Below, piece by piece: positions 18,014 to 43,548 of a DNA stretch of 64,000 bases. Location of the stretch: contig JAHLEZ010000011.1 of assembly GCA_020726505.1 (NCBI GenBank), positions 186,001 to 250,000 of the forward strand, in the 5' to 3' direction. This DNA comes from Leptodontidium sp. MPI-SDFR-AT-0119 (taxonomy: Eukaryota; Ascomycota; Leotiomycetes; Helotiales; Leptodontidiaceae). The notes beneath the pieces are model-generated. The model was given only the letters and a program-made list of their open reading frames with translations. It searched no databases and was not told the origin of the DNA. A program made the translations under genes and the position numbers. Within the stretch, counting starts at the first letter, position 1, and every line of letters begins with the position of its first letter.

Positions 18014-18526
18014 CTACCTAAACGGGACCAGTTCATGCGAGGAGCGGAGATAAGACTCTGCTTCACGAAGGTCGTTGTAGATGTAGGAGTTGGCGCAGTA
18101 GAGGATGTTGAGGATAAGTTTGGGTGTGTTAGACATTAGGTTGTGGTCTAGGGATGCGGAGGAGAAGACGATAAGTTTGGGGAGGTGGGGGGTAGGGTGG
18201 TTTTCTTTTTTGAGGAGGGAGAGAGCGGATACGACGGCGTGTGCGGTTTCCTGGGCGATGGAACAGCCTGGTTTGTTTGATACTTCTGCTACGGTAAGGA
18301 AAGCTGCTTTGGCTCCACGGAGACAGTTCGCTAGTAGAGAGGTGTTTTGGAGAGAGCCTTCGAAGACTTGTACTTGGGTGCTCGAGGCGATGGTTGGGGA
18401 TAGTTTCGTGAGTTTTTCTTTGGAGCGGCAGTAGGCTTGGATTTTGTTGTCTGGTGATTCGAGGAGAATAGTGAGAAGTGCTTGTCCCACGCTGCCTGTG
18501 GCTCCTAGGAGTGCGAAGATTGGCAT
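18014..18526 (-). CDS. NmrA-like NAD(P)-binding reductase, C-terminally shortened
   Basis: The frame encodes 170 aa from an ATG at 18526. The N-terminus MPIFALLGATGSVG has the GxxGxxG dinucleotide-binding motif of atypical SDR/NmrA-like proteins, and the middle (KLIVFSSASLD) fits the strand carrying the active-site region. Family members usually have about 270 residues; here the frame stops after HELVPFR, where the substrate-binding C-terminal third should begin. Either an intron with donor GTAGTA at the stop (18015 downward) leads to an exon I cannot identify, or the gene has lost its 3' end, possibly linked to the MITE 340 bp downstream. It is divergent from the DUF1772 gene. Confidence 0.6.
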   Translation of the reverse strand: MPIFALLGATGSVGQALLTILLESPDNKIQAYCRSKEKLTKLSPTIASSTQVQVFEGSLQNTSLLANCLRGAKAAFLTVAEVSNKPGCSIAQETAHAVVSALSLLKKENHPTPHLPKLIVFSSASLDHNLMSNTPKLILNILYCANSYIYNDLREAESYLRSSHELVPFR

Positions 18527-19027
18527 TTTGATAACTTTGAAATAAATCGTTTATATGACCCGTGAAGTTGTTACAGCACTTTAAAAATTGAAACATGTTT
18601 GCATATATTCAGATACAAGAACATCTACGTATGAGCGGCATGATCATCATCGTCACTGATCTATGTCAAGCTTCAAAGAAAGTCAAAAAGGAAGCCAGGA
18701 AGCCCCCGAAAACTTCTTGGCCAACCACATTTAGTCACAGCGGACAGCGAAGAGGAGCCCGATCCCGTTCATCAATGAATCGCCTATGGTTTCTTTACGA
18801 CGTTAAGTACGATCGATGACGTTGATGGAGTTTTGGTCAAATGTTGTCCGAGACTAATCATAACAGGACAAACAAAGTCACCACGAAGCGGATCTTGGCG
18901 AAATCGACCCCGCAGTATGTAAATAAACCCCCCTGGCGCCTCACTCAACATCTAGTATCCAACATTAGCTGTCTCCTAAACACCAAAGAAAAAAAGATGA
19001 GAAAACAAAACTGAAAGGGCGTGCAAG
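18527..19027. promoter_or_regulatory. Shared 5' region of the NmrA-like and DUF1772 genes
   Basis: About 500 bp between two divergently oriented starts. No gene is seen. The pyrimidine/adenine-rich stretch just before 19028 resembles a fungal 5' UTR. No specific operator is recognised. Confidence 0.4.
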
Positions 19028-21432: not shown

Positions 21433-23607
21433 TCATCCCTTCAAGAATGCCCCGTAATATGTGTCCAGCCAGCGGACAGCTTCAGTCCCTGCTTCCGGCA
21501 AATGTGAATTCCACCTCCCAATGCTTCCAACGTATCCATCCGGTCGAATATTGACAATCCCCACTTCGCCTTCCATCAATGGTCCTATCCACTTCTCCGT
21601 TGCTGTCGGCATCCGCATCAAGTTATCCAGATAGAACGTCCACCTGCTATCCTGCAACAAAGGAGGAAGATCCGCGATCTCCACGCGCGCCTTCGGCATC
21701 GTCGTCACCATCGCATAGGTGACCAGTTTTGAGACGGGCACATATCTCTGAGGCTGAATGAACGAGTCCATTTCTGTTTCTGGCTGTCCTTTCACTTTGT
21801 ATGACGCGTTCGCCGCGGCTGTTGCTCGTCCCAGGACCGTCCTCGAAGAAGAGACCTCCGCGCAGACAGTCTCGAGGAAAGGCGACGCTATCTTGATGTT
21901 GTCGGTGAAGAAAAATACGCGGAACTGGCCAATCATTGGGATCTCAAGTTGGAGGTTTACGGGATTTGCGTCGATGTATCGCGTTACTCTTGCTGGTACC
22001 ATCAGACATCCTGGTTGGAGTGCCCCTCTCCGTACCTTCTCTGGCATATTGAGCGCATTCTCAGCATACTCAGCCCCAACACCAGAGATGAAGCGGATAT
22101 TCTTTGCGAAGTTCTCAGCCAGCGCTTTGGGATCGCCGGTTGCGAACGCGGTGGCGTGGCCATAATCGAAGTCGATCAAGTCTTGGGCAATTTTCCTCCT
22201 CTCTTGTTCGTAGGTTGAGAGGAGACTTGCTGGTGCCAGGCCCCGAACAACCAAGTTGAGCTTCCAGGAGAGGTTGAAAGCGTCGTGCATACTGACGTTC
22301 ATACCTTGAGCTGCTTTTGGAGAGTGAGAGTGTGCTGCCTTGAAGGTTGTTAGTATTTAGAGTGTTGAAAGGAGGTGTTGGAAGGGGAAGGCACGACTCA
22401 CGTCTCCTGCAATGAATACCTTCTCCGATTCACTGGAGAACTTCTTTGCTACTCTTTGTCCGACCTTGTAAATACCAAACCATTCTGACGGCGTGAGTGA
22501 GATTCCTGTTGCTGTCTTTGGAGAAGTTGACTTACCAATAGTTTTCCAGGATAATTTGAAGGGAGCCATGATTGCCTTTGCTCTTTCCATTACAAACTCT
22601 TCAGTTGCCGCTTCTGAGGACATTGGCGCTGACCCCGGATGGAGTTCGATGTACAACCGTGTCATATTCTTCTCTCGAGGAATACACAGAATCGAACCTT
22701 CTGTCTCTGAGCTTATTACCGCTTTACTCCAGAGATCTGGAAAGTCTGTATTGATCACACCTGAGTCCGATTAGCAATCAATTTACCCCACAAACGCTTG
22801 TGTACTCACCATCCAAAACACCCCAAGCCGAGTTCGATCTTTCGCCATCATACGTTGCATTGAGAAGAGACTTTCGAACTTTCGAGTGCGCACCATCGCA
22901 ACCCACCATATACTTCGAAGTAAATAGCTTTGGCTTTCCACTCATCAAGTCATCGCATTCGATCTCAACACCAGCTGCGGTCTCCTTGTACTGCGAGAAC
23001 GGCGTGCTTCGGACCACTTCAACACCACGAATCTTTAAGTCATCCAAGAAGACATCTTCTACCATGCCCTGATGGACAAGAAGAATAAACGGATCTTGTA
23101 CATCGACAACTCCTGGAGGATAATGGATTTCGCGACCTATCCGACGCAGGGGTTGGGTTGCTGTTCCATTCTGTGGGTTTTCATGAGCAAAGGTGGTCTT
23201 GCAAGTGCATTTCAATATGCCGAAAGGAACACTCATACCCAGAAACAGATGTCATATATCCTAGCACCTTTCTGCAGCAGTGGTCCTGCTAAACCCAGTT
23301 GCTTGAATGTCTCAATGGTCTTCGGTTGAAGGCCATCAGCTCTGCCTGTGGAAGTCTTGTCTGGCCGATCATCAAGAATTGTTGTCTTGATGCCATACCG
23401 CACTAAATTTGATCTGGCAGTACTCGTCAATAAAATGCCTCGTATAGCTGGCTATCCTGTGCCAAAAACTCACGCCAACATCAGGCCAGCAGGTCCTGCA
23501 CCAATGACCGTCACGTGGCTGTCATTCTCGCCCGACTCCGAACCGGACTCGATTCCGTTTTCCATGGGATCATCACGGAAGCCCTCGTTGTCCATTCCAG
23601 GCGACAT
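21433..23607 (-). CDS. hxnV: HxnV-like FAD monooxygenase (phenol 2-monooxygenase family)
   Basis: Six exons in transcript order: 23607-23474, 23413-23239, 23170-22810, 22760-22536, 22484-22402, 22338-21433; 627 aa. All five introns (49-68 nt) keep frame. FAD motifs are complete: GAGPAG (residues 36-41), CDGAHSK (about 194-200) and GDAAHSHSP (325-333). The C-terminal thioredoxin-like region of PheA/TfdB enzymes is present ([10 protein letters not shown]). In Aspergillus, HxnV hydroxylates 2,5-dihydroxypyridine to 2,3,6-trihydroxypyridine. A generic phenol hydroxylase would look similar, but its neighbours hxnW, X, R, T and S support HxnV. Met5 is an alternative start. A 950-bp promoter region separates it from the hxnW 3' end. 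Confidence 0.85.
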
Positions 23608-24557
23608 TCTTGTTTGCTTTTTCTTTCGTGCTTGGTATTACAACACGGATTGTGCGACTCTTTTCTTCGATCTTGCAGTCCAAGGAGGCGAGAAGTTCTC
23701 TCATGGTTTACCTTTCTTAATTAATTAAGCCTTCAGCGTAGTTCCATGATTATGAGTGAGTCTGGCGTCGCAAGACCGGCCACAACGGACGTGCTGGATC
23801 AGCTCAGACTACTGTAGATCGGACAAGATCAGGCGATAGGGGGGTAAGAGTGGAGGGGTTAATGGCATGATTCGGAGAAATCAGTCGATAATCAAGGATG
23901 GGGTCTAGATTAGATACCGCGGCATGACCTTACATTGGGCAGCTTTACGGGGATGGATGACAAAATGGTTTCGCGGCTGCAGGTGGGCACTGGGCATCGT
24001 GGCAGCTGGTGAAGTCGGAGATGGAGCAGGTGGCCAGTCAAGGGGTGGCTGGCAGTTGTAGTGACATTCTGGTGCATCTTCAAACGGAAAGTTACAGGAG
24101 ACCATTGCGACGGGTGGTGCACACTTGGCAGACTATTTGCTGCCTTCAACCCCAAACGAGAGTCACGGTATGAAGTTCTCGAGATCATCTACCTCAGTCC
24201 CTCCCCTGGGTAAGTAGAGAGGGAGATTCCGTCAAGCCACGACTCAGCACAAGCGTAGCTTTGTCAAGTTAAAAATTAACTCTGATTTGTCCTCCAGCCC
24301 CCAACTTTGCTCCAAGCAAGCACAGCACTCTATTTTGCCGTTTGGATTTGCCATCCTTCACCCGCAGTCCTCCGCGCAACAAATCACGCATCACTGCCGG
24401 TAACCGCACAGCGAGAATAACTTCCGCTTCTGTTCTGTACAGTAGCTGGACAAGGACAACTGTTTTCAATCCAGCCCCGACAAGACCAGAAGGCAAAATG
24501 GAACAAACGGAAAGTGTTTGATGCATCTCTGAATTTTCTATATTTGGTCTACATAGT
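23608..24557. promoter_or_regulatory. hxnV promoter region and hxnW 3' flank
   Basis: About 950 bp with no convincing gene. It holds the 5' region of hxnV and the 3' flank of hxnW, both on the minus strand. Open frames here (for example 24269-24526) lack domains. HxnR and AreA sites would be expected, but I could not identify an HxnR consensus. Confidence 0.4.
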
Positions 24558-25580
24558 CTACCATTTCGTCACTCCTCCATCAATACAGAGATCCTGTCCT
24601 GTCATGTAAGAACTGGCATCGCTAGCCAAGAAGACACAACCACCTCGAATATCATCCGGTGTCGCTACTCTCCCATTCATAATCTCGTCTTTCCAGCTCT
24701 CGAGAAGATCGGGGAACTTTTCATTCATGTTAGCGTTGTTCGATTCTCATCCATTCATCGTCATCTTCAATGAGCAAGCCAAACTCACCGGAGCTGTCAT
24801 CTCAGTCCTCACATATCCCGGAGAAATCGAATTAACTCTAATTCCCTGTAACAAAAATCAGTACAATATTCAAATGCATCCACCAGTCCAAAACCAGGAA
24901 TAAAATAAAAATACATACATATTCCACCAACTCCTTCGCAATCCCGGGACACATCGCTCTCACCGCACCCTTGGTCCCACAATACGCACTGCTCATCTGA
25001 CTCCTGATAGCCATATAACTAGCAATACTTGCCACGAGCACAATACTCCCCTTCTTCGTTCCATTAGCAATCATCTGTTTAGCAGCTAGCTGTGCAGTAT
25101 GATAAACACCCATCACATTGACACCCAGCAATTTCTGATGCTCCTCAAACGACGTCTCTAGGAACGATAGGTGCCGATTGATTCCCGCGCAGGGGACGCA
25201 GATATCTAGTTTTCCGTCGAAATCTTTGGAGAAATCTGAGAAGCCTTTGGTGAGGGATTCCATGCTGCTCACGTCGACGCTGGAGGTTGTCAGTGAGGGG
25301 GATGTAAGTCGTGGTCACGTGTTCTGGGATATACTTGCAGGTAGTGAGCGGTTCTGACGCCGAATTTCTTCTCGATCTCGAAGAATGTTTCGACGGGTGG
25401 GATTACGTCGAAGATGGCTACGTCTGCTCCTGCTTCTGCGAGGCCTTCTGCGAATGCGAGGCCGCAGCCTCGAGCTCCGCCTGTGATGAGAGCCGTTCGG
25501 CCTTTGAGAGAGAACTGTGGTTCTTTGTTAGTGTTGTTGTTCTATAAGTGATGAGGAGTCTTTCTTACTCTGTCCATCAT
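24558..25580 (-). CDS. hxnW: HxnW-like short-chain dehydrogenase/ketoreductase
   Basis: Five exons: 25580-25569, 25514-25339, 25279-24919, 24845-24789, 24716-24558; 254 aa, typical of classical SDRs. TGGARGCG (residues 15-22) is the NAD(P)-binding TGxxxGxG motif, AGI at 94-96 fits the NAG position, and Tyr162-CGT-Lys166 is the catalytic YxxxK pair with serines at 147 and 150. The C-terminal [10 protein letters not shown] and [10 protein letters not shown] motifs are standard. Intron 2 (25280-25338) is of the rare GC-AG type. In A. nidulans HxnW reduces a ring keto group during nicotinate breakdown together with HxnT. The start offers two adjacent ATGs. hxnX is divergent from it, 900 bp away. 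Confidence 0.85.
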
Positions 25581-26483
25581 TTTTGTTGTTGGTATTGTTT
25601 GTTTACAGTGGGATTTTCGCCCTATGTTGCCTTTGTAGTCTCTCAGGATCGGACAGACAGTATGTTGATTCAACCAAGAAGTGTAGATAGAAGACAGCTA
25701 GCTAGCTACGAGCCAGCCAACAACACACCCTTCATCCTATCCCATCCTATCCCATTTTCGTCTCGTCTCGAATTACACAGTCCACAAAAAATGCCCGTAT
25801 TCCCTATCCTCAAAATACCAGTAATAAATTCCGCATCCAGCAAACTCAACAACCTCTCCCCCTCCTCATGGCAATAACCGCACATCGTTATCAGCCCCCA
25901 CCCCCACTTCTCTCCTCTCTTAATGTCATCAATCCACGTTCCCACTTCTGCAAGACCGAAAGACTACAAGTGCCGAAACCCAATCGCAGGCACTACATTT
26001 GCACTACTGCATTATTGCATAGGCAGCTAACGAAGTACGACCATCCATGTTTTCGACAGATAACGACTAAGGTACGACAACGACTTATCTGCGCTGCCCA
26101 GCCGAGCTGCGTGGGAAGGCCGAACTTTTAATACGGAAAGAATGGGATGGGAAAGGATAGGATAGGAAACATGGGGTTTGGATTTCGGAACCAATCATTA
26201 CATGCATGCATACATGCGGATGGACTGTAGGGTGGGCTTTTGATGATATGGGCTCCATGTTCGACTCTGATGCTTGGGCCTGAGCTTGATATTGACATCG
26301 CTACTGGGCCACTTGTCAATAACCTCACGACATCTGGCGATTTCTGAGCTCTTTTGTGTCTGTTGTCTGGCTAGGAGCAGTTTATTGTACTGTGCTAGAT
26401 TTTGTCTGATTAGTTGATTTTTTGTTCCCCTTCTAGCTTTGGCTTCAGCTTTCGGATTTTTCTGGTTTGGATACTGGAGATTC
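25581..26483. promoter_or_regulatory. Divergent hxnW-hxnX promoter region
   Basis: About 900 bp between divergent starts. Two AGATAA-type HGATAR motifs, the consensus of the nitrogen regulator AreA, lie in opposite orientation at 26058-26063 (+) and 26085-26090 (-). Nicotinate genes are subject to nitrogen control in A. nidulans, so paired sites fit, but short motifs arise by chance. No gene is seen. Confidence 0.4.
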
Positions 26484-28289
26484 ATGATGGAGTCTGGATA
26501 TATCGCTCCGAAGCAGAAGATAGTGCGAGGTGATGATACGAAGCTGAAGGTGGGTTGACCTTTCTCTTTAAATTATCCTGGTCTCATCTTATCTTACTTA
26601 CCCCAAGATTGAGGTTAATGTTAAGGTTAAACAAGATGATTCTGGACAACTAACTAACTAACTCATGAACAGGTAATAATAGTAGGAGCAGGCCTTGGAG
26701 GTCTCGGAGCAGCAATCTCAATCCTCCTCGCAGGCCACGATGTTCTCGTCCTAGAAGGTGCATCCGAAATCGCTGAAGTAAGTCTTCCCACAAATCCCCC
26801 CCTTTTAATTCCCCTCCATTTCCTCAACCAGAACTCCACAAACTCACAATATCCCAGGTCGGAGCCGGTATCCAAATCCTCCCCAACAGCAGCAGGGTGC
26901 TTCAACAATGGGGCATGCTCAATTCCCTCTCACGCTACGCTACGCGCCCAAAATGCGTCAACATGCTCAGCTGGAAAGGCACGCTAATCTCCTCTCTCGA
27001 CTTCGCTTCCTCCGCGGTCCAATACCCAGGGACATTCTACTGGGATTTCCACCGCGCGAATCTGCACACATGCTTGCTCGAGCGGGCGGTAGAACTCGGT
27101 GCCGAAGTGCGATGTAAGGCGCGCGTCGTAGGCGTGCGAGTCGATTCCGATTCCGATTCCAATTCCAACCTAGGCAGTCAAGTAGTTGGAGGCAGAGATG
27201 GAGCGACAGTGGTCCTCGAAAGCAGCGAAGAGATATGGGGAGATTTGGTAGTAGGCGCCGATGGGATAAATTCCCGATTGCGAGAACTCCTCCTCAAGCG
27301 AGCTGATCCTCCAACACCGACTGGGGATTTGGCATATCGACTTTTACTCTCTACATCGTCCATGTTAGCTGATCCCGACTTGGCGCCGCTGGTTACGGAT
27401 CCGCAGGTGAATTACTGGTTAGGACCGGATGCGCACGCGGTGAATTACGTGTTGAAGGGTGGGGAGCTGTTTAATATGGTTCTGCTCGTACCGGACGATA
27501 TGCCTGCCGATGGGGCGTCGACGCTGGAGGGGAATGTGGTTGAGATGAGGAAGTTGTATGAGGGGTGGGATCCGCGGATTGGGAAGCTGTTAGGATTGTG
27601 TGAGAGCGTGTATAAATGGAGATTGTGTATTAGGGGGCCGATGGACAGGTGGAGTCATGAGAGTGGTGCTTGGACTATGTTGGGGGATGCGGTGCATGCT
27701 ACGCTTCCTTATTTGGCTTCGGGGTATGTTGAGATTTGTTTGGTTTCTTGCTTTCTTTCTTTGCAATTTTTTTGGGCACATATCTATATCCCACCCAACT
27801 GTCCTCAAATAGTCAATAAACTTCCTCCAGCTAACACCCCCCGCAGCGCAGGCATGTCCCTCGAAGATGGCGCCGTCCTCGGCGAATGCCTCTCCCGGAT
27901 CTCCTCTAAATCTCGCTCATCCAAACGACACGCCCTAAAGATCTACGAAGAATGCCGCAAGGAGCGTACGGAAATGGTGGTGCAGAGGGGGAATCTACAG
28001 CAGTATCTTTATCATTTACATGATGGACCTGAGCAGGAAGAGAGGGATCGGATGATGAGAATGGTTCCTACACCAAAGGGCGAGGCGCTTGCGTGGAGAG
28101 ATCCGGAGCTGGCGCCGAGGTTGTTGGGGTATGATGCTTTGAGGGATGTGAGTAGTTTTTTTGTTCTGTTTTGAGGTTTGGTGTATATGAGCGTGTGAGT
28201 TAGTGAGTGAGTAACTGTACTGACGTGTAAGATAGGTCGATGAGCATTGGACGAAGGAAGAGAAGGACGCAGTACAGTGTAGATTGTAA
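26484..28289 (+). CDS. hxnX: HxnX-like FAD monooxygenase (6-hydroxynicotinate 3-monooxygenase type)
   Basis: Five exons: 26484-26549, 26673-26777, 26858-27723, 27847-28147, 28236-28289; 463 aa. It is a salicylate-hydroxylase-like class A flavoprotein: GAGLGG (27-32) binds FAD, GADG (190-193) is the DG motif, and GDAVHATLPY (from 333) is the GD motif. In A. nidulans HxnX converts 6-hydroxynicotinate to 2,5-dihydroxypyridine and is peroxisomal. The last exon ends in Cys-Arg-Leu, which fits the PTS1 pattern [SAC]-[KRH]-[LM] and supports the same location here. A Ser/Asp/Asn repeat (about residues 152-162) is a local expansion. The 3' end converges on hxnR with 126 bp between stops. Confidence 0.87.
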
Positions 28290-28415
28290 ATACGAGGATA
28301 ATTGGTATAAAGTCCAGCCAGAGCTGAAGTCAAAGTCGTGTAGCAAGAATGAAACATTACATATTCATCAAAGTCATCACTCATCTCACATCCTCTAATC
28401 TCATCTCATGCTATA

Positions 28416-31400
28416 TCATCTAGTCTTCCCCACAAGTCCCTTCAAAACAAACATACCTTCTTGCACAACAGCCCATCGTATTCTTGCCAGATGCTTAGCC
28501 ATAACCCTCGGCAGATCACCCGTCCGATATTTCCCAGCCACCTTCCACAAATCCTCGAGATTCGAGCGCGTCATCGCACTGATGAGCGCATTCATCTCTG
28601 CTCTGGCATCCCAATCGTTATCCTCCTCGTCTTCGCTTAGATCTCTAGCTTCGCCACCTTCATCACTCTTGCTACACATTTGGAAAGCCCAGCAAGTCAA
28701 AGTGGCGAGATACAAACACCAAGGATAGTGAAAGTAGTCTCCCGCATCCCAGTCTTTCAGCTTACGAATACCATCTCTTAGAATCCTCGCAGCGTGCGAA
28801 CTAGCTTTCGCAGCTGCCATGGAGCGGTGTTTAGCCCACTGTTCGATACGCTGACAAGAGCGATCTTGGTCGGCTTTCATGACTGGGCGGCCAATAATAT
28901 GGCTTGCGCCTGCGTATATTTGAAGATCGTTGATCTCGACGTGGAGGATGATGTGTGCAGCGTGGTAGATGGCAAGGTTGGCGACGCAGAAGCGTTGGAA
29001 TTCACCTCTTTCGGACTCGTTGTCTTCGAGGGTTTGGAGGGTTTGCTTACTGTAGTTGTCGAAGTCGGATTTCCAGGCGTCGTAGGAACGGGCGATGCGA
29101 GATTGCCAGGGCTCTTCTTTGCCGGACATTGAGAGGCCTATGGTACGTTAGTCTGGTGATCTGTGGTGAGAGAGGGAGGTGCTTACCTAGGGAAGTTTGG
29201 TCTCTTCGGTTGAGATCCCATGAGACGGACATGAGTCCATGCAGCATCAACACCCGGGATAGAGCGTTCAGGGGCCTCATGTTGACGTCGGATCGAGGAT
29301 TGATATATTTCTTTAGAATGGAAAGGTATTGAGGTTGTGGTTGTTCTGAAGCGTTGATACTGAGCCATTCCTCTGCAGTCTCGGCTTCCCAGAGCGCTTC
29401 GTTCCAGGGGAGTGTGAGATTCAACTCTGCTGCACTCATGCATAGAGATTGAGAAAACAACACGGCATGCTGGGTATCCCACATGAAGCAAAGAAGGGCC
29501 AGTCTATTCTAAAGTCAGCCTTGTAGTGATTGCTCATTCGGTTTAGAACCTGCCTCCTCCGCTGCTCAGCGTCCACCTCAGCCAGCCATCTATGATTAGG
29601 ATCATTGTATTCACTCGAAATTTGACATCGAGCAGATTGACAATCGCTTCTTCGAATGAGACTACGTGTGCTGTTAATTGCAACTCAGGAATAACCAGGA
29701 GACACAAATCAAACAGCCAAAGAAACTGGGGACTCACTTGATGAGTAAACCGTGAAACAAGTGTGACATGTCATGCTGCATTTGACCAGCGCGAGACTTG
29801 CCGAAGCATTCGACGAGTAAAATGGTCTGCAGAACCCATAGCATCGGCCGAGTGTTGAAGGCCGCACTTCCAAATATCTGAGCTCGAAGAGTATCGTGGA
29901 TGCAGACAGCTACGAGATGCGATTCTTTAGTGTCGTAAGTTGCACCCAGGAGAAGAACGGAAATCAGGAGTAGAGGATCAACACTCGCAGGTTCGAATGT
30001 AGCTTGATGAAGTAGGGGGTAAGAGGCATTAAATCTCTTGAAATAGAGGTCGCAGTACTCCTGTAAGACGGGGAGATCTAGAAGCGGGTGGTCTGCTGTG
30101 ATTTCACAACCGTCGGGCGTTTTGGGTCCAGCTCGGTGAACCAAACCCAGGACTCCTTGTCGAGCAGTTTCGTTAACAAGCGGTAGCTTCCGAATAGGTT
30201 TTGGTTGGCTGGGATGGGGATACAGTTCTTGACCAGATCCAGAAGTTGTCGGTGTTGGGAAGAATCCCGGACTAGCCGATACAGGTCCTTGGTGGTTCTT
30301 GGGGCTTTCAGAGACTGCACTGTTATAGCCAAGGCTCGAGGCGAGATTGTACTCGGCCATCTTGGACATCGCCAGAATTTGGTTGGCTGCTGAGGTCTCC
30401 GGATTGGGCTCATCCTGAGATTGGGTAGAGTAGTCAGACGCGGCTGCGGGCATTCCATATCCGAATTGTGGTTGCTCATATTGCTGCCTAGTATTGCTGT
30501 AATCACCACTTGTGCCTAGATAGTCGAGGCTTAGAATCAGTTTTTGCTTCGTATCCGCATATGAAGACAAATCTCGAATGTCTGAGGACAACTTGACACA
30601 TGTGGTCTTCATCGAAGTGCTTATCAAGACAGATTGGCCAGTGGGAAATAAACACTTACCAGAACTGTTGGAAACACTGAATCCCCTAGAGTCAATACTT
30701 GAAGGAGGTTGAGGCACAGCATTAGCATTGCCCATCATGCTGAACCTCGGATCGATTGCGGCCGGATCGAGGTCAACATCTGGCCAGTTCTCGTTTCCAA
30801 ACAGCCAGTTGTAGTAATTTGCAGTTGTAAAAGGGTTATTGAAAGAGCTGGCTGTAAGAATGTTATTGAATGTGCTGAAAGAGAGTGGTACTTTTGAACA
30901 CTCACCTGTGTCAGGCGCAAAAAGATCATTGTACAGTAGATCAGTACCGGCATTCTCCTGAGGTTTAGATCCCCATGAAGCGTTTAGTAAGAAGTCGTAG
31001 GATTCTGGCAGGGAATCATCGCCTGGGAAGGTGACGTCTCCGACCGGCCATGAGTCCTCTGAATGCCCATGACCTGCGCCAGATGTATCCATGGAATCCG
31101 GTCCATTCGAAGCATGGTCTTCCATTGACCCGGGAGGAGATAATGGCGCACTCTCATGGTTGAAGTAGGTATTTGTCTCGATGCCGGCGGTTTCCTTTCG
31201 AGATGTCCTCTTGGTCCTCGTAGAGCTCTTGGGTTTTTCGAGTTCTGGCCTGAGTGAGCTCGGAGTTAGTATTACCCTTTCAAATTAACGTATTTTAAAA
31301 TACTGAGATCGCCTTGGGACATTCGAGTGCAAGAGAAGCCCACCTCCGCTTGGCCACTACAGTGCCATTTGAATCGCGCCACAGCCGTTTTCGAGTCTGT

Positions 31401-31790
31401 AACTTCCCCATTCCCTCTCCTCCAGCTTCGGCGTCTTTCTCTCTATGTCGAGACGTATGTCTATCTATCAGACAGTGAGCATAGGGACATCTAGCCAACT
31501 CTTTCAGGGCATTGGCATTCCACAATGTCATCTTGTAAGTCGCCAAATTAATTGGTGACATTCGAGAGCACCCACTCACCTAATAAATCCTTCCGCTTGA
31601 AAACAGCATTGCACCTCTCGCACGTATTAACCCCCTTGGTCTCATCGTGGTTCAAAGCATGTCGATGAAGGTGTTCCGCACGTGAGAAGCTCTTCGTGCA
31701 GGATCCGAATGTGCATTGGAACTCCTTCAGTGACGAAGCCGCCGCCGCTGTCAGAGAAGACGTCGCAGTGGCATCGACAGCAGCCGCCAT
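28416..31790 (-). CDS. hxnR: HxnR-like C2H2 transcription factor with fungal regulatory domain
   Basis: Six exons: 31790-31580, 31464-31344, 31249-29738, 29670-29554, 29503-29187, 29137-28416; 999 aa as drawn. Residues about 25-70 form two C2H2 fingers, CX4CX12HX4H and CX2CX12HX4H; the second is split by intron 1. A basic stretch follows (KRRPELEKPKSSTRTKRTSR). The C-terminal half matches the fungal_trans domain found with C2H2 fingers. HxnR is the pathway-specific nicotinate activator in A. nidulans and has this architecture. A 54-nt segment in exon 3 (GTGAGT...TTACAG, about 30855-30908) is probably a further in-frame intron, which would give 981 aa. Intron 4 (29504-29553) best fits a GC-AG intron, giving RRRLALLCF. 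Confidence 0.83.
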
Positions 31791-32516
31791 TGTTGTGACG
31801 GCAACTCAAGACTTCGAGAATGGGGACGGCAGGCGAGGGCGAGGGATATGTTGGGTGCATGCAAAAGTGGGATGAATGCGAGTCCCTCGGTTGATTGATT
31901 GATTGATCGTTATCAATTTTGCTACAGTAAGGGAAGCACAGTGCTGAGAAGTTCCTGGGCTTGGGTATTTGTCAGAACGCTTTCCAAAACTCAATTCGTC
32001 AGTTGGGAGCATCTCAACTGTGGAAAACATATCCATCCAGCGGAAGAAACCTCGGCCCCTTCACACCAAATCGACACTTGTTTCGATCAAGCCACCAGGA
32101 GGTTGATAACTATCTTAATACCAGAAGGCGATCGAGACTGGCTGATGGGATTCGCCAACCACGACCACACTCGAGCTGATCCCTAGCCTTTGGAACGGAT
32201 ACTACCTAGGTAGAAACTGCAAATCATCACGTTCATACTAATTATCAACATCGTATGGACTACTTTGCTCGCGAGTTGGATTGGGAGTAGAATTGGGAGC
32301 AGAATTTCTGTCGAGATGGTGGCGGTACCTGTTTGTTGACTTTTGGCGACACTAGCACCAAGTTCACTTCCACACCTCCTAACGTTCAACAACATCAGTC
32401 TCCTCAAACGATACTCAGGTAGAAAGAGGAGATCTCAGCGTCAGGCGTAACGAAACCAACATTTATTTTCCATGAAAGTTCTATTCTATCTTCTACTTCT
32501 ACCCTCTACCGGTCAC
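31791..32516. other. hxnR promoter region and hxnT 3' flank
   Basis: About 725 bp without a gene. It carries the 5' region of hxnR (minus strand) and the hxnT 3' flank. A short TTGA/ATTG repeat occurs near 31890-31910. Confidence 0.4.
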
Positions 32517-33877
32517 CTACACAGCAGCAAGCTTGCTCTCCTCATAAAAAGGATAATCAGTATAGCCCTTGGTAGGTGGATCCGCACCATAGAACGACGA
32601 GCGGTCATACTGTGTCAACGGCAAACCCTCCCTCAACCTCTTGGGCAAATCTGGGTTCGCAATGAACCATCTCCCCATCACAATCGCATCCGCCTCCCCA
32701 GCCGCAACCTTCGGCTCTGCATTATCCCTATTGAAGTTACCCGCCGCGAGGAACTTGATGCCGGCCTTGGCTAGGATGCGCTGGAATGGGACGAGCGAGT
32801 TGACGCCTGCTTTGGCGGTGATGGCCTCGTCAACGCTGGTCTTGGAGTAGGCGGCTAGCGCCTCCATCTTGGCTGCCTCGTCGAGATTCTCGTCGAAGCG
32901 AGGCTCGATCATATGGACGTACGAGACGCGGTTCTCAGCTGGGAGAGAGGCGATCTGGTTGCAGAGGTATGCCCAATGCGTGTTGGGGTCTGAGTCTTTG
33001 GTGTCTTGGTAGTAGTTGTATGGGGAGAGACGGATGCCGACTTTGTCTGCGCCGATGGCGGACGTCACGGCTTGGATTACTTCGAGAGGGAAGCGGCATC
33101 TATTCTCGACCGAGCCGCCGTAGGCGTCGGTGCGGAGGTTGACATTGTCGTGGAGGAATTGCTCGAGGAGGTAGCCGTTTGCTCTATGTCATCGGTCAGA
33201 ACATCTACCTCTGAAGTAATGAGAATTGAGCGAACTTACCCGTGGATTTCAACTCCGTCGAAACCAGCTTCAATGCATCTCTTGGCTGCCTCTGCAAAAT
33301 CCTTTGTGATGGCGTGGATCTCCGAAATTTCCAAGGGTCTGGGAGGGTGGCTGGCGTAGTCGGTTCCATCGACAGCAGGGCCTGTGATTGGGATATTCGA
33401 AGAGCTGACAGTCTGCTTGCCCTCGAGGAGAGCATCAGAAGAAGCTCTTCCAACGTGCCAGATCTGGCAATAGATGAAACCACCCTTGGCGTGAACGGCA
33501 TCTGTTACACGCTTCCATCCTGCACTTTGGCCTGGTGTGAAGATTCCTGGAATACCTGGGTATCCGGAGGCCTGGATGTAGTCAGTACGGTACGGTACAA
33601 TTAATATCAAACATCCAAAACGCTGGCAACGTACCAGTCTTGAAATGTTGGTTGCTTCGGTGAGCTGCAGACCACCCTTGCTTGCTCTTTGCCCGTAGTA
33701 CTCAACAGCGATATCTCCTGGTGCCCATACTCCGTCAGACTCCTTCACACCTCGCATGCGAGTCAGAGGAGACTGAATTATTCTATGCTCCAGCTTCAAA
33801 GCGCCGATTTGAATTGGAGTGAAGAGAGCGGTATCTGCGAGAGGCTTGAGCCCCTCTGAAATCTTGGAAGGCGACAT
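32517..33877 (-). CDS. hxnT: HxnT-like Old Yellow Enzyme (NADH:flavin oxidoreductase)
   Basis: Three exons: 33877-33635, 33571-33240, 33183-32517; 413 aa. Intron 1 is 63 nt, a multiple of three without stops, so it can pass as coding; removing it restores the family sequence ([19 protein letters not shown]). Motifs are FTPIQIG near the N-terminus, QIWHVGR, the active-site group [14 protein letters not shown] and [11 protein letters not shown] near the flavin phosphate. His191, Asn194 and Tyr196 fall at the same numbers as in yeast OYE1. In A. nidulans HxnT reduces the ring double bond with HxnW. ATG at 33877 (context CACAATGTC) was preferred over an in-frame ATG at 33922. It is divergent from hxnS. 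Confidence 0.87.
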
Positions 33878-34712
33878 TGTGAGGAGTTGAATGTGTTTTT
33901 GTAAGAATGAGACAATTCTCATTCAATTTCGAAGATGGTATTGATCTGGTGGAATAATAGAAGGAAGGAAGGAAAGAAAGAAAGAAGGACGGAAAGGAGC
34001 AAGAAGAGGTAGGGAAGAGCAGACAGAGAATTCTCGAGTGGTACGAGTAGGTAGGTACCTGACAAAGTAGAGAGCGCTCCCCCACCATGCCCCTCCATTC
34101 TGGAAGGCGGTAAAGCCGCTTCCCGCCCTGCCTACAAGAGTGAGAGAATGCAGGGTTAATAGCAGTATCATCATTATTTACCCTCAGAATAGTAGTTTAA
34201 GCTTCACTCGGTATCATACATAAGGTACATCCTGCAGTTGCATAAGTGGGAAAGAGTGAAAGAATGGGGGTGGGTTTAGATCCTTATCTGCTGGGGTGCT
34301 GATCATGGAAGCCCCCAGCGCAGGCTAGACCCCTGAAGTTCGCCTGCATCTGAACCTCCCTCAACCACCAAACGCACTTACTCGGGTGGCACAGGATTGC
34401 AGCCTCCATTCGCTTGGTTCTCAAACCATCCCACCTCCCATTCCACACCGGTTAGTGATTCAGGAGGAGGCAATCCGAGTGGCCGGCCTTGTCTAACTCT
34501 CTCCTGCACGGTGATACCAATCAATTCTGAATGAGGTGGGAGCTCGGGAGGGAGTGGGCATCCGAAAAGAACGGTGACGAACAGTTATTCCTTCAATCCG
34601 TTGTCAGTCTCACCACAGTCAGTGTCAGTGTCAGTGTCAGCTACAGTTTGTAGCTTCGCTTCACACCGATTTCTTCTCCAAAACTTCATTACATTTCATC
34701 CACAGTATCACC
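33878..34712. promoter_or_regulatory. Divergent hxnT-hxnS promoter region
   Basis: About 835 bp between divergent starts, matching the hxnT/hxnS arrangement known in A. nidulans. One AreA-type motif (TTATCT, minus-strand AGATAA) lies at 34284-34289. TCAGTG units repeat at about 34605-34640 in the presumed hxnS 5' UTR. No gene seen. Confidence 0.4.
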
Positions 34713-37700
34713 ATGGAGCTATCTCCGGCAATCCAATCTGTCTTCAAGGAGAGTTCCTTGGATTTCTATCTGAATGGGACGAGGATAACTCTGAAGAATG
34801 CTAATCCGCAGTGGACACTTCTCGATTTCATTCGATCCCAGCATGGCCTCAAAGGCACCAAGCTTGGATGTGGGGAGGGAGGATGCGGTGCTTGTACAGT
34901 TGTTTTACAGGTTTTAGATAATATTGCAGAGCAGAAAGGACGAGTGAAGCACCTCGCAGTCAATGCGTGTTTGTTTCCTTTGGTTGGAGGTATGTCCTAC
35001 CCCATCTTCGACATGATCATGTTTGAAGAATATCTTTGCCCTGCAATGAACTGAGAGAGCTGATATCATGCAGTGGTGGGCAAGCATGTTATCACAGTTG
35101 AAGGAATTGGAAGTCTGGATAATCCGCATCCACTCCAAGAGCGCATGGCAAAACTCCATGGATCGCAGTAAGTTATGACCAGTCATCGAAGTGCCCAATC
35201 TTGCTGACGACATTGAATAGATGTGGTTTCTGCACTCCTGGAATCGTGATGTCCTTGTACGCTCTAATCAGGAATTCGTACAACCCGATTACCGATGAGT
35301 ACCACCTATCTGCCAGTGATATCGAGTTGGAAGGTCACCTCGATGGCAACCTTTGCCGGTGCACAGGCTATAAACCAATTCTGGAAGCGGCGAAGACTTT
35401 CATAACCGAGGACTTGAAGGGGAAAATTGCGTATTCTTGTAACGAGATCGAAATATCCCCCAAAGACAGCACAAAAGAAATCCCATATCGGTCAGAAAGC
35501 AATTTGGATGGACCTCTACGAAGCAATGGTTCCTGCGGGAGACCAGGAGGCTGTTGCAGAGACCCACCGAAAACTTCAGCACGGGAGCAATTATCAAGCG
35601 AGGACTCGTCTGACAAGATCTCTGATGAGTCCTCCGAGGCTGCAAGCACATCTGAAAGTGGAATCAGCAGTCCTGATGAGAGCGAGACACCAATGAATGG
35701 GACTTCGTACGGAAGGCCGATGAAATCCAACGAAGTCAAATCCGGATCTGAGACACCCGTGGAAGGAACGAAAGTCACTTCTCAGCTCGATACATCAGCG
35801 CCCAAAATCAAATCCAGTGTACCACAATTTGTGTTCAAACCATACTCTCCGAACACTGAGCTTATATTCCCCCCAGCGTTGAGGAAGTACGACAAGACTC
35901 CGATTCTGTTCGGCAATGCAAGCCATGTCTGGCTCAGGCCGACGAGTTTAGAACAGCTGCTCCTCATCAAGGACGCATATCCTTCTGCAAAACTAGTTGG
36001 TGGGTCGAGTGAAGTTCAGGTCGAAGTCAAATTCAAGAACTCCTCGTTTCCGATATCTGTCTATGTCTCCGATATTGAGGAACTTCGTGGCATCATTGTA
36101 CCAAAAGATATCAGCAAAATGGAAGAGCTTGCGATTGGCGCAAATGCGCCATTGACTGAAGTCGAGAGCGTTTGCAATATACTCTCTGTCGAATTGGGAC
36201 AACGAGGCTCGGTTTTAGAAGCTGCCAGGAAACAGCTGAGGTACTTTGCGGGACGACAGATTCGAAATGTGGCTTCCCTCGCAGGCAACATTGCGACAGC
36301 ATCTCCAATATCCGATATGAACCCAGTTCTACTGGCTTGTGGGGCTACCCTGACAGCACAAAGCCTCTCCAAGGGAAAATTCGACTTACCCATGTCAACA
36401 TTCTTTACCGGCTATCGGGCGACCACACTTCCTCCCGATGCCGTGATCACTCATATCCACATCCCTCTTCCACCACCCGAAACAAGAGAGCTCACGAAAG
36501 CATATAAACAAGCCAAGCGAAAAGACGATGACATCGCAATCGTCACGGCTGCCTTCAGGATTCGTCTTAGTACCGATGGAACTGTATCAGAAATTTCCTT
36601 GGCATACGGTGGCATGGCACCGAAAACAGTCGAAGCAAAGGAAACGATGAAGTTAATCCTTGGCAAGAAATGGGAAGTTCGAGCAACTCTTGAGGGGTGC
36701 ATAGAATCTCTAGCTCAAGAATTCGATCTCTCATTCGGTGTTCCAGGAGGAATGGCTACATACCGAAAGACTCTTGCCCTGTCCCTGTTTTTCCGATTCT
36801 GGCACGAAACTATTTCGGATTTCGGATTGGGAGAGGTTGACCCAGATTTGATCAATGAGATACATCGAGACATATCTTTTGGGTCACGAGACAATTACAA
36901 CCCGCATGAGCAGCGTGTTGTCGGCAAGCAAGTCCCACACTTGTCTTCCTTGAAGCAGAATACCGGAGAGGCAGAATATATCGATGATATGCCCCCGCAA
37001 AACAGGGAGCTGTTCGGGGCTCTGGTGCTTTCGAGTCGAGCACACGCCAAACTGATAGATGTAGACTGGACGCCTGCTCTCGAGCCTGGTCTTGCCCTCG
37101 GATATGTGGACAAGAACAGCATTCCCAAGGAAGCCAATATCTGGGGATCGGTAGTGAAAGACGAACCATTCTTCGCGGATGGTGAGGTCTTCTCACATGG
37201 CCAACCGATCGGTCTCGTCTACGCCGAAACTGCTCTGCAAGCACAAGCTGCAGCTCGAGCTGTAAAAGTTGTCTATGAAGATCTACCTACCATTCTGACA
37301 ATTGATGAAGCAATCGAGGCCAATAGCTTCTTCAAGCATGGCAAGATATTGAAGAAGGGAGATGCACTTGAGGATAAGATGGATGGAGTCTGGTCGAAGT
37401 GCGACAAAGTGTTTGAGGGTGTTTCGAGAATAGGTGGTCAGGAGCATTTCTACCTGGAGACAAACGCCGCCTTGGTAATTCCGAACAAAGAAGACCGATC
37501 TTTTGAAGTCTGGTCTTCTACCCAAAATACGTAAGTTGCTCCTCTGAATTGCATGTCTGATGACTGACATCTTGGTGCAGCATGGAACCCCAGGAATTCG
37601 TATCGCAAGTCACCGGCGTACCCAGCAACAAGGTCAACGTCCGAGTAAAACGTATGGGCGGCGCATTCGGCGGGAAAGAGTCTCGCAGTGTACAACTAGC

Positions 37701-39362
37701 TGCCATTCTAGCCGTGGCGGCCAAGAAAGAATGGAGACCTATGCGATGCATGCTCAACCGAGACGAGGACATGATGACTTCAGGCCAGAGACATCCTGTG
37801 CAATGTCGGTGGAAAATCGGAGTGACGTCCGATGGAAAGCTCCTCGCTCTCGAAGCTGATGTCTACGATAATGGCGGCTACTCGCAAGACATGTCTGGTG
37901 CAGTCATGGATCGATGCTGTACACATCTGGAGAACTGCTACGAGATCCCTCACGTTCTTATCCGTGGACATTGCTGTAAGACGCACACTCACAGCAACAC
38001 AGCTTTCAGAGGCTTCGGAGGCCCACAAGCGATGTTCATTGCGGAGAGTTATATGTCTGCTGTCGCTGAAGGACTTAATATCCCCATCGACGAGTTGCGC
38101 TTCAGAAATCTCTACAAAGTCGGAGGACATACTCCCTTCTTACAAAAGATCGACGAGGATTGGCACGTTCCTATGATGCTAGAACAAGTCCGAAAAGAAG
38201 TCGACTACGACAACCGTCGTGCTGCAATCGAGAAGTTCAACTTGGAACACACGTGGAGAAAGAGAGGGATTTCCATGATCCCAACCAAATTCGGGTTGAG
38301 TTTCGCGACAGCATTACATCTGAACCAAGCCACAGCGAGCGTCAAGATTTTCGCCGATGGAAGTATTCTTCTCCATCATGGAGGTACTGAAATGGGACAA
38401 GGACTCTACACAAAGATGTGCCAAGTTGCTGCACAAGAACTCAACGTCCCACTCGACTCAATCTTCACTCAAGACACCACGACCTACCAATCCGCCAACG
38501 CCTCTCCCACCGCCGCATCATCTGGCAGTGATTTGAACGGCATGGCCATTAAAGACGCTTGCGACCAACTAAACGAGCGCCTTAAGCCCTTCCGAGAGAA
38601 ATACGGCGAAGATGCACCCATGAAGACCCTCGCTCATGCAGCTTATCTCGAGCGTGTGAATTTAGTCGCTAGTGGATTCTGGAAGATGCCTAGGATTGGT
38701 TACGTCTGGGGAAATTACGATATGAAGACTGTCAAACCGATGTATTACTACTTCACACAGGTCAGTACCCCCACCCCCCCGTCTTTCTATCTGATTAGCT
38801 AGGGAAAGACTAACAAAACAAAATACAGGGTGTAGCAGTCTCCGAAGTCGAACTCGACGTCCTAACAGGCTCTCACACCGTCCTCCGCACCGACATAAAA
38901 ATGGACATCGGGCGCTCCATCAACCCCGCAATAGACTACGGGCAAATCGAAGGCGCATTCATCCAAGGGCTCGGTCTCTACACAATGGAAGAATCCCTCT
39001 GGACACAATCCGGACAACTCTTCACGCGTGGGCCAGGGACGTATAAAATCCCAGGCTTCTCCGACATCCCGCAGGAGTTCAATGTGAATTTCCTGCAGGG
39101 CGTGGATTGGAGTTCCCTGAGGAGTATACAGAGTAGCAAGGGGGTTGGGGAACCGCCGCTTTTCCTCGGGGCGACGGTGCTGTTTGCTTTGAGGGAGGCG
39201 GTGAGGAGTGCCAGGAGGGACAATGGGGTTGAGGAGCCTTTGGTTATGGATAGTCCGGCGACTGCGGAGAGGTTGAGACTTTTGGTTGGAGATGAGATTC
39301 TGAAGAGGGGGACGGTTGTGCCGAAGGAAGGGGAGAGGAATTTCTTTGTTAGTGTTGCGTAG
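34713..39362 (+). CDS. hxnS: HxnS-like molybdenum hydroxylase (purine hydroxylase II / nicotinate hydroxylase)
   Basis: Five exons: 34713-34989, 35074-35167, 35221-37530, 37581-38760, 38829-39362; 1464 aa, longer than usual xanthine dehydrogenases (about 1330-1400). The order is two 2Fe-2S clusters (Cys53/58/61; Cys125/128 with Cys169/171), a Ser/Glu-rich linker (about 200-305), an FAD domain (QIRNVASLAGNI) and a molybdopterin domain (GGQEHFYLET, GGAFGGKESR, GTEMGQGLYTK, GVGEPPLFL). Both catalytic-site glutamates are kept, but the residues aligning with bovine Arg880 and Thr1010 are His1024 and Ala1136. This argues against ordinary xanthine dehydrogenase and for HxnS, which makes 6-hydroxynicotinate. 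The cluster neighbours support that. Canonical hxA must lie elsewhere if present. Confidence 0.87.
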
Positions 39363-42570: not shown

Positions 42571-43548
42571 TCAAACATCTTTCATTTCCAAGTCTCTCCA
42601 GAACTTTGCAGTCTCCGCCGGGTATGTAGTATTCTGCAATTTGATCTCCCACTTCTCCGGATCCTTCTCATATCGATCGCACCATTCATTCAGAAGCTGT
42701 TCCCGGGGATTGATCCCCGCCAAATGGACCAGTAAATCACCACCTCGGACCTGGTCCGGCTTCAACTCCTTATCCTTCTCGTCTTTGTAGGCATTGAACC
42801 AGCGTTGTGGTACTCGGACAGTGTGCTTCGCATATTTCGGCTGCTTGAGGAGAATCTCCATGGCGCTTTGGTCTTGGAATGTGAGGGTGGTGTTCGGCTG
42901 AAAGTCGCGAAACGATGTGATGCTGGTAAAAAGTTCCACGGCCCATGGGTCGACGCGTACGAGGAAGACGCCGTTGTTGAGACCGTTCCAATCGTCGGTC
43001 ACTAGGAGGTGTATGTCGTTGTGCTCGGGAGGAGGCATGAAGATTTCGATGGGGATGTTGTGATTGAGTACGACCGTGTCGGCGTCTACCCAGAATAGCC
43101 AGGAGAGGCGATCGTCTTTCTCCTTGCCGAGTTCCAGGAGGAGGAGCGAGAGAATGTAGGCCGGCTTTGTCCAGTACCCGTCTAGAATGCCGTGTCGTAG
43201 CAGATGCATTCGGTAGTTATGAATCCGGTTGTGCTCTTCGTGTGTCTTCAGCGCCCTTTCGTACGCTGGCTTCTTATCTCCGTATAGGATACTGACTTTG
43301 CCAATATATTGCTTGCTGCTCTCGGGGATATGGGCATCTGGGCCTCCGAACAAGGGGTTCAAAGAGATGATTTTCGACTGCCAGGTGTCGGAGCCGTGGC
43401 TACTGGATTGGATGTCGCGTAGGAGGGCTATTAAAGAAGCTATGATGGCGAAACAGAGAATGAGGATGACGATCCGTGACTTTTGGACATTGCGTGAGAG
43501 GTTTGAAAAGATGTGCCGTGGCAAGTTGATGTGGTCAATGAGGGTCAT
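42571..43548 (-). CDS. Golgi type II glycosyltransferase, GT34 (MNN10/GMA12) family
   Basis: Single exon, 325 aa. A short cytosolic N-terminus is followed by a signal anchor at about residues 26-43 (VILILCFAIIASLIALL), the layout of Golgi glycosyltransferases. The catalytic domain has WLFWVDADTVV with the metal-binding DxD at 155-157, then DWNGLNNGVFLVR and a C-terminal HLAG motif typical of GT34. Fungal members add alpha-linked mannose or galactose to N-glycans or mannan. Which sugar is used here is not determined. It is convergent with the SET gene (229 bp between stops). Confidence 0.85.
   Translation of the reverse strand: MTLIDHINLPRHIFSNLSRNVQKSRIVILILCFAIIASLIALLRDIQSSSHGSDTWQSKIISLNPLFGGPDAHIPESSKQYIGKVSILYGDKKPAYERALKTHEEHNRIHNYRMHLLRHGILDGYWTKPAYILSLLLLELGKEKDDRLSWLFWVDADTVVLNHNIPIEIFMPPPEHNDIHLLVTDDWNGLNNGVFLVRVDPWAVELFTSITSFRDFQPNTTLTFQDQSAMEILLKQPKYAKHTVRVPQRWFNAYKDEKDKELKPDQVRGGDLLVHLAGINPREQLLNEWCDRYEKDPEKWEIKLQNTTYPAETAKFWRDLEMKDV

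Follow-up and report, generated by a model that had tools for sequence, protein, structure and literature searches.

In Aspergillus nidulans, the hxn regulon for nicotinate catabolism is distributed over three clusters, designated 1/VI, 2/VI and 3/I (PMC5746545, PMC8478523, PMC9304392). The text of one of these (PMC8478523) also describes hxn clusters assembled in one block, some with all 11 genes, and treats the split in A. nidulans as a derived state that arose by inversions. Here, we describe a block at positions 21433-39362 of a 64,000-nucleotide stretch of Leptodontidium sp. MPI-SDFR-AT-0119 (C3:186001-250000 of a 77 Mb assembly of 69 contigs, cited below by their C-numbers; the whole stretch is hereafter the window). 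On the basis of residues, domains and gene order, its six genes, referred to as V, W, X, R, T and S, very probably constitute the redox core of the hxn regulon for nicotinate catabolism in filamentous ascomycetes, together with its regulator.

The block shares with the A. nidulans regulon six of the 11 gene types, the divergent hxnT/hxnS and hxnW/hxnX pairs, the diagnostic residues of HxnS, HxnX and HxnV and the length of HxnW (PMC5746545, PMC8478523, PMC9304392). In contrast to the three clusters of that species, which include hxnZ, hxnY, hxnP, hxnM and hxnN, V-W-X are joined here to R-T-S via the convergent X and R genes. The 11-gene clusters described in the same text for Cyphellophora europaea and Hymenoscyphus repandus likewise carry V, W, X, R, T and S in one block, and in C. 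europaea the V/W/X genes also lie on the hxnR side (there as V/W/X/M/N). Both of these clusters, however, hold M, N, P, Y and Z within the block, and W is divergent here from X instead of M. The nine-gene cluster of A. terreus is similar in combining V, W and X with R, T and S while M and N lie elsewhere (texts of PMC8478523 and PMC7842363), but there hxnS is the neighbour of V/W/X and the cluster includes Z, Y and P, whereas here X lies next to hxnR and neither P, Y nor Z was detected. The exact six-gene content was not met in the text consulted on hxn clusters, a statement that concerns the text as distinct from the supplementary cluster map and makes no claim that such a cluster is unpublished. 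With five redox enzymes and a regulator, and no hxnM, hxnN, hxnY, hxnP or hxnZ detected in the window, the content is mildly unusual.

The six genes are adjacent, complete and intron-bearing, with V and W on the minus strand, X on the plus strand, R and T on the minus strand and S on the plus strand; X and R converge across a gap of 126 bp, while W/X and T/S diverge (Table 1). The hxn identity is favoured by the domains and sizes of the proteins, by the residues published for HxnS (10 of 10), HxnX (seven of eight, together with a C-terminal CRL) and HxnV (five of six), by the length of HxnW and by the two divergent pairs. The original prediction of six adjacent genes of the hxnV, W, X, R, T and S families is thus borne out by domains, residues and order, and the regulator with C2H2 and Fungal_trans domains that it placed beside an old yellow enzyme (OYE) gene, itself divergent from a molybdenum (Mo) hydroxylase gene, is seen in the gene models and their domains. 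For comparison, the A. nidulans lengths of V, W, X, R, T and S are 620, 254, 461, 865, 388 and 1396 amino acids (aa), respectively (PMC8478523 Table 1, PMC5746545). Models were spliced by script and by hand. That of V has one further short intron, an in-frame ATG 12 bases upstream is possible and an alternative acceptor of intron 2 adds residues, and the V start and one V splice site are uncertain. One intron in each of the W and R models is apparently of the GC-AG type, with GCAAGT and GCAGGT as donors, and could escape a standard gene finder.

Table 1. Features of the hxn-like block, in window coordinates (SDR, short-chain dehydrogenase/reductase).
Feature	Position	Strand	Description
hxnV-like, phenol-2-monooxygenase-type flavoprotein, predicted 2,5-dihydroxypyridine monooxygenase	21433..23595	-	623 aa, 6 exons
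hxnW-like, SDR, predicted 5,6-dihydroxypiperidin-2-one dehydrogenase	24558..25580	-	254 aa, 5 exons, one GC-AG intron
W/X divergent intergenic region, candidate shared promoter	25581..26483	.	903 bp
hxnX-like, decarboxylating flavin monooxygenase, predicted 6-hydroxynicotinate 3-monooxygenase	26484..28289	+	463 aa, 5 exons, C-terminal CRL
hxnR-like, two C2H2 fingers and Fungal_trans	28416..31790	-	933 aa, 8 exons, one GC-AG intron
hxnT-like, old yellow enzyme, predicted 2,3,6-trihydroxypyridine reductase	32517..33877	-	413 aa, 3 exons
T/S divergent intergenic region, candidate shared promoter	33878..34712	.	835 bp
hxnS-like, Mo-hydroxylase, predicted nicotinate 6-hydroxylase	34713..39362	+	1464 aa, 5 exons

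The best evidence for the hxn identity of the block lies in S, which is matched by MoCoBD_1 (a separate match; Pfam was run on the V, W, X, R and T proteins). The HxnS positions compared were the FATAL insertion, Pro1008, His1069, Ser1137-Gly1138, Glu856, Arg934, Phe968, Phe1064 and Thr1066, and all agree when counted from the FATAL motif with one fixed offset, including FATAL-H, the Pro and Ser-Gly. According to the text of PMC5746545, HxnS is separated from HxA by five features, namely an Ala insertion, Pro, His, Ser and Gly; half of the matching positions of S are these discriminators, which supports the hxn identity. Besides S, a single xanthine-dehydrogenase-type gene was found in the genome (C3:882743-883498, 657 kb from S and on its contig). 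At the positions readable in the fragment, it shows the HxA pattern, FTAL-F and Ala-Ser, while its Glu833, Arg911 and His985 fall outside the fragment. S and this paralogue are 55% identical over a 552-residue overlap. At the place of Ile478, located by eye with the help of bovine numbering, S has an aliphatic residue (Leu) and the paralogue has Phe.

Among the remaining redox enzymes, X carries a FAD_binding_3 domain (Pfam), and its matching HxnX active-site positions stand at one constant offset. Its C-terminus reads CRL instead of SRL; Cys at -3 of a type 1 peroxisomal targeting signal is classed as non-canonical in the text of PMC12316961, which also cites a working CKL in yeast. V is matched by FAD_binding_3 (242 bits) and Phe_hydrox_dim (60.5 bits). 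When V is aligned to 2dkh, the Asp, Leu, Ile, Tyr and Lys among the HxnV positions Asp65, Lys231, Leu243, Ile245, Tyr255 and Ile126 are kept, as counted by eye (all but the Lys being ring contacts), and the sixth position is Phe where A. nidulans has Ile. W (adh_short_C2, 184 bits) has the TG(X)3GXG motif and Ser147, Tyr162 and Lys166 at the published numbers, and equals A. nidulans HxnW in length (PMC8478523 Table 1). The structure 3awd, named in the text of that report as a closest structure of HxnW, is among the 21 chains that W matches at E up to 1e-30, although not the best of them; apart from the length, the residues of W are generic to SDRs. T (Oxidored_FMN, 285.7 bits) shows a His191/Asn194 pair and a Tyr in a C-terminal FY motif, compared with His183, Asn186 and Tyr372 of HxnT, an agreement that is generic to OYEs and would be a weak indication of identity.

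The regulator R contains Fungal_trans (PF04082, 144.6 bits, residues 445-716) and two C2H2 fingers readable in the model, of which Pfam lists only the second, at 20.0 bits against a cut-off of 25.2. A basic stretch after the fingers, LQTRKRLWR, resembles the published nuclear localisation signal. Protein searches with R, T, V and X revealed no second close copy of any of them in the genome, which counts in favour of the assignment. The closest other gene to R is 30% identical over the domain (the fingers alone are 49-59% identical to those of a gene on C4), other OYEs are 42-47% identical to T, with 47% as the maximum over long matches, and the closest other copies of V reach 42% over 424 residues, and elsewhere 51% over 161. 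For X, the figure is 38%.

Several observations weigh against the assignment. X, V, T and W all belong to large families. At the constant offset, Gln59 of HxnX is unmatched in X (Met77), while Gln63 stands in GAGIQI, and W has Asn at 117 where the published HxnW number is 119. X scores much higher with a 4-hydroxybenzoate decarboxylase chain, its best PDB match (343.5 bits), and with vanillate 1-hydroxylase (295.8 bits) than with Pseudomonas NicC (149 bits for 5eow). With NicC (5eow, 8uiq), used for the structural comparison in the literature, X shares the flavoprotein fold and the predicted reaction, but at about 149-151 bits only. This ranking does not contradict the assignment, because the reaction assigned to HxnX is also a decarboxylating hydroxylation; nevertheless, it shows that family membership alone is insufficient. 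Furthermore, predicted AreA- and HxnR-type sites are present between W and X (four HGATAR and three GHGGGG) and between T and S (one HGATAR and two GHGGGG), but are not significantly enriched over shuffles: the totals were 12 versus 8.4 (p 0.12), 6 versus 5.0 (p 0.37) and 27 versus 20.9 (p 0.08), and the sole low value, for HGATAR upstream of R (p 0.03), is one of 15 uncorrected tests. Lastly, HxnN, P, Y and Z were not identified among their many relatives in the genome.

With the pathway order taken from A. nidulans (text of PMC9304392), we infer substrates, induction, peroxisomal import and the use of unlinked hydrolases as follows. S would hydroxylate nicotinate to 6-hydroxynicotinate, and X, probably in peroxisomes, would replace the carboxyl with a hydroxyl group to give 2,5-dihydroxypyridine. 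V would hydroxylate the latter, and T would reduce the ring to 5,6-dihydroxypiperidin-2-one, the presumed inducer, which W would oxidise to 3-hydroxypiperidine-2,6-dione, while R would turn the genes on. Since the inducer would be made by T and consumed by W, its producer, consumer and sensor would all reside within one block. Unlinked genes would supply an imidase of the HxnM type to open the ring and an amidase to hydrolyse the amide, with release of ammonia.

The absence of hxnY, P, Z, M and N from the window, as originally predicted, holds in so far as family, hydrophobicity and Pfam scans detected none there, while a genome search for MFS transporters scored only nine of 891 candidates and is uninformative. 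Whole-genome family searches for hxnM, hxnN and hxnY list no PF01522, PF01425 or PF03171 match within the window, with at least 15, 82 and 27 genome matches listed, respectively (lower bounds for large families). The nearest listed on C3 are a PF03171 match ~173 kb left of the cluster and, to its right, an amidase ~711 kb and a PF01522 match ~1.84 Mb away. No hxn family occurs among 15 Pfam-scanned flanking open reading frames (ORFs), a subset of those in the window. Three window frames (of those with at least 60 aa) passed a crude hydrophobicity scan for transporters and none reads as MFS; one of them is an anthrone-oxygenase-like ORF (PF08592, 19001-19585) left of the cluster, beside an NmrA/NAD_binding_10 ORF (18014-18550). 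A tblastn search for a relic of hxnN in the V-W gap and of hxnM in the W-X gap gave no hit at E<=1e-3 (best 0.05), a weak test in that the queries were the HxnM candidate described below and frames of at least 120 aa from loci L005-L073 instead of true HxnM and HxnN references; the one match to pass this threshold (1.2e-5) is located beyond the cluster, at 42712-43020.

The genome search proposed for the five missing genes yielded an HxnM candidate and left N, P, Y and Z unassigned. The candidate, on C34 and hence unlinked to the block, matches 3qbu over 262 of 262 query residues at 380.5 bits; 3qbu is the closest structure named for HxnM in the text of PMC8478523, and this match is counted in favour of the hxn assignment. 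A second CE4-type frame, on C2, gives a weaker match (135 bits, covering 146 of 150 query residues). This 440-aa frame (C2:1393897-1395216; L012:532-1851) fuses an SDR (PF13561) to an HpPgdA/HxnM-type CE4 domain (PF01522), combining the kinds of enzyme that act at the consecutive W and M steps of the hxn pathway. Its SDR part is 25% identical to W of the window over 203 positions, and a similar SDR is absent from the fetched flanks of nine prokaryotic relatives of its CE4 part. On C51, a 42 kb contig, a 66-residue stretch within a 121-aa frame (C51:9868-10230, minus strand, L078) is 62% identical to the C34 candidate; with no further parts in the 2.2 kb read, it appears to be a paralogue that is incomplete or has decayed.

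C67, where PF03171 and PF01425 matches lie 2 kb apart, was considered as the site of a further hxn block carrying hxnY and hxnN. This was not adopted because, read by eye, the ORFs resemble a permease of the nucleobase type, a 2-oxoglutarate oxygenase and a fusion of isochorismatase and amidase. This locus (C67:834349-840846), with its permease-like gene, PF03171 oxygenase and isochorismatase-like plus PF01425 frame, looks like another catabolic block for nitrogen heterocycles. An hxnP-hxnY pair was likewise not found: two of the 27 listed PF03171 loci (L051 and L067) have MFS-like frames, which are convergent with the oxygenase instead of divergent. That scan, covering ~1.5 kb of flank per locus by crude hydrophobicity, is insensitive, as a stricter setting found none and missed L051. 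On C68 (2698844-2705718; L051, L062), two genes for 2-oxoglutarate oxygenases lie within ~7 kb together with a gene judged by eye to be MFS-like.

A bolder view, which we consider unlikely, is that of a minimal hxn core that makes and consumes its own inducer, with transport and both hydrolytic steps uncoupled from it and the ring opened either by a general-purpose imidase of the HpPgdA type encoded at an unlinked site or by the C2 fusion of SDR and CE4; at its most extreme, this view would have the pathway stop at the dione, with a role in detoxification instead of nitrogen supply. Of the alternatives to a working hxn pathway, a truncated, detoxifying or scavenging version survives best and is nonetheless improbable. 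It would carry nicotinate to 3-hydroxypiperidine-2,6-dione and no further, lacking the dedicated HxnM/HxnN pair, and the C34 gene would be one of the HxnM paralogues thought unrelated to nicotinate that are general in dikarya (text of PMC8478523). The lack of hxnM and hxnN in the window fits this view, as does that of an amidase beside the C34 candidate within the fetched sequence (the nearest listed on C34 lies ~0.7 Mb off). However, the C34 candidate is close to the cyclic imidase family, amidases are numerous (at least 82 PF01425 match pieces), and in A. nidulans M and N belong to the regulon although unlinked from the main cluster, with a leaky hxnN deletion (text of PMC9304392).

It is very improbable that the target of the block is another aromatic acid or N-heterocycle and that X acts on a substrate of the benzoate type. 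The position of X nearest to the benzoate decarboxylative hydroxylases in the PDB would agree with such a role, but S bears HxnS-specific residues, X retains its HxnX positions, of which the 4-hydroxybenzoate decarboxylase chain shares five of seven (by eye), and replacement of a carboxyl by a hydroxyl group is the very reaction assigned to HxnX. Weakest of all, and hardly credible, is a recent fusion of two groups that were separate in the ancestor, to which the separate groups of A. nidulans had pointed: the junction of R-T-S with X through convergent hxnX and hxnR stands, but one-block clusters are published for a Eurotiomycete and a Leotiomycete and inversions account for the arrangement in the Nidulantes (text of PMC8478523), so that the proposed direction was wrong and fusion as a new event is rejected.

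The hxn assignment adds a cluster of unusual content to a family used for studying the assembly and dispersal of metabolic clusters in eukaryotes; otherwise it is routine annotation. The pathway and the one-block arrangement are already known from other fungi. If it is true that only the five redox genes and HxnR stay linked, the finding would bear on the idea, set out in the text of PMC8478523, that genes stay linked where pathway intermediates are toxic, because 2,5-dihydroxypyridine would be both made and removed inside the block.

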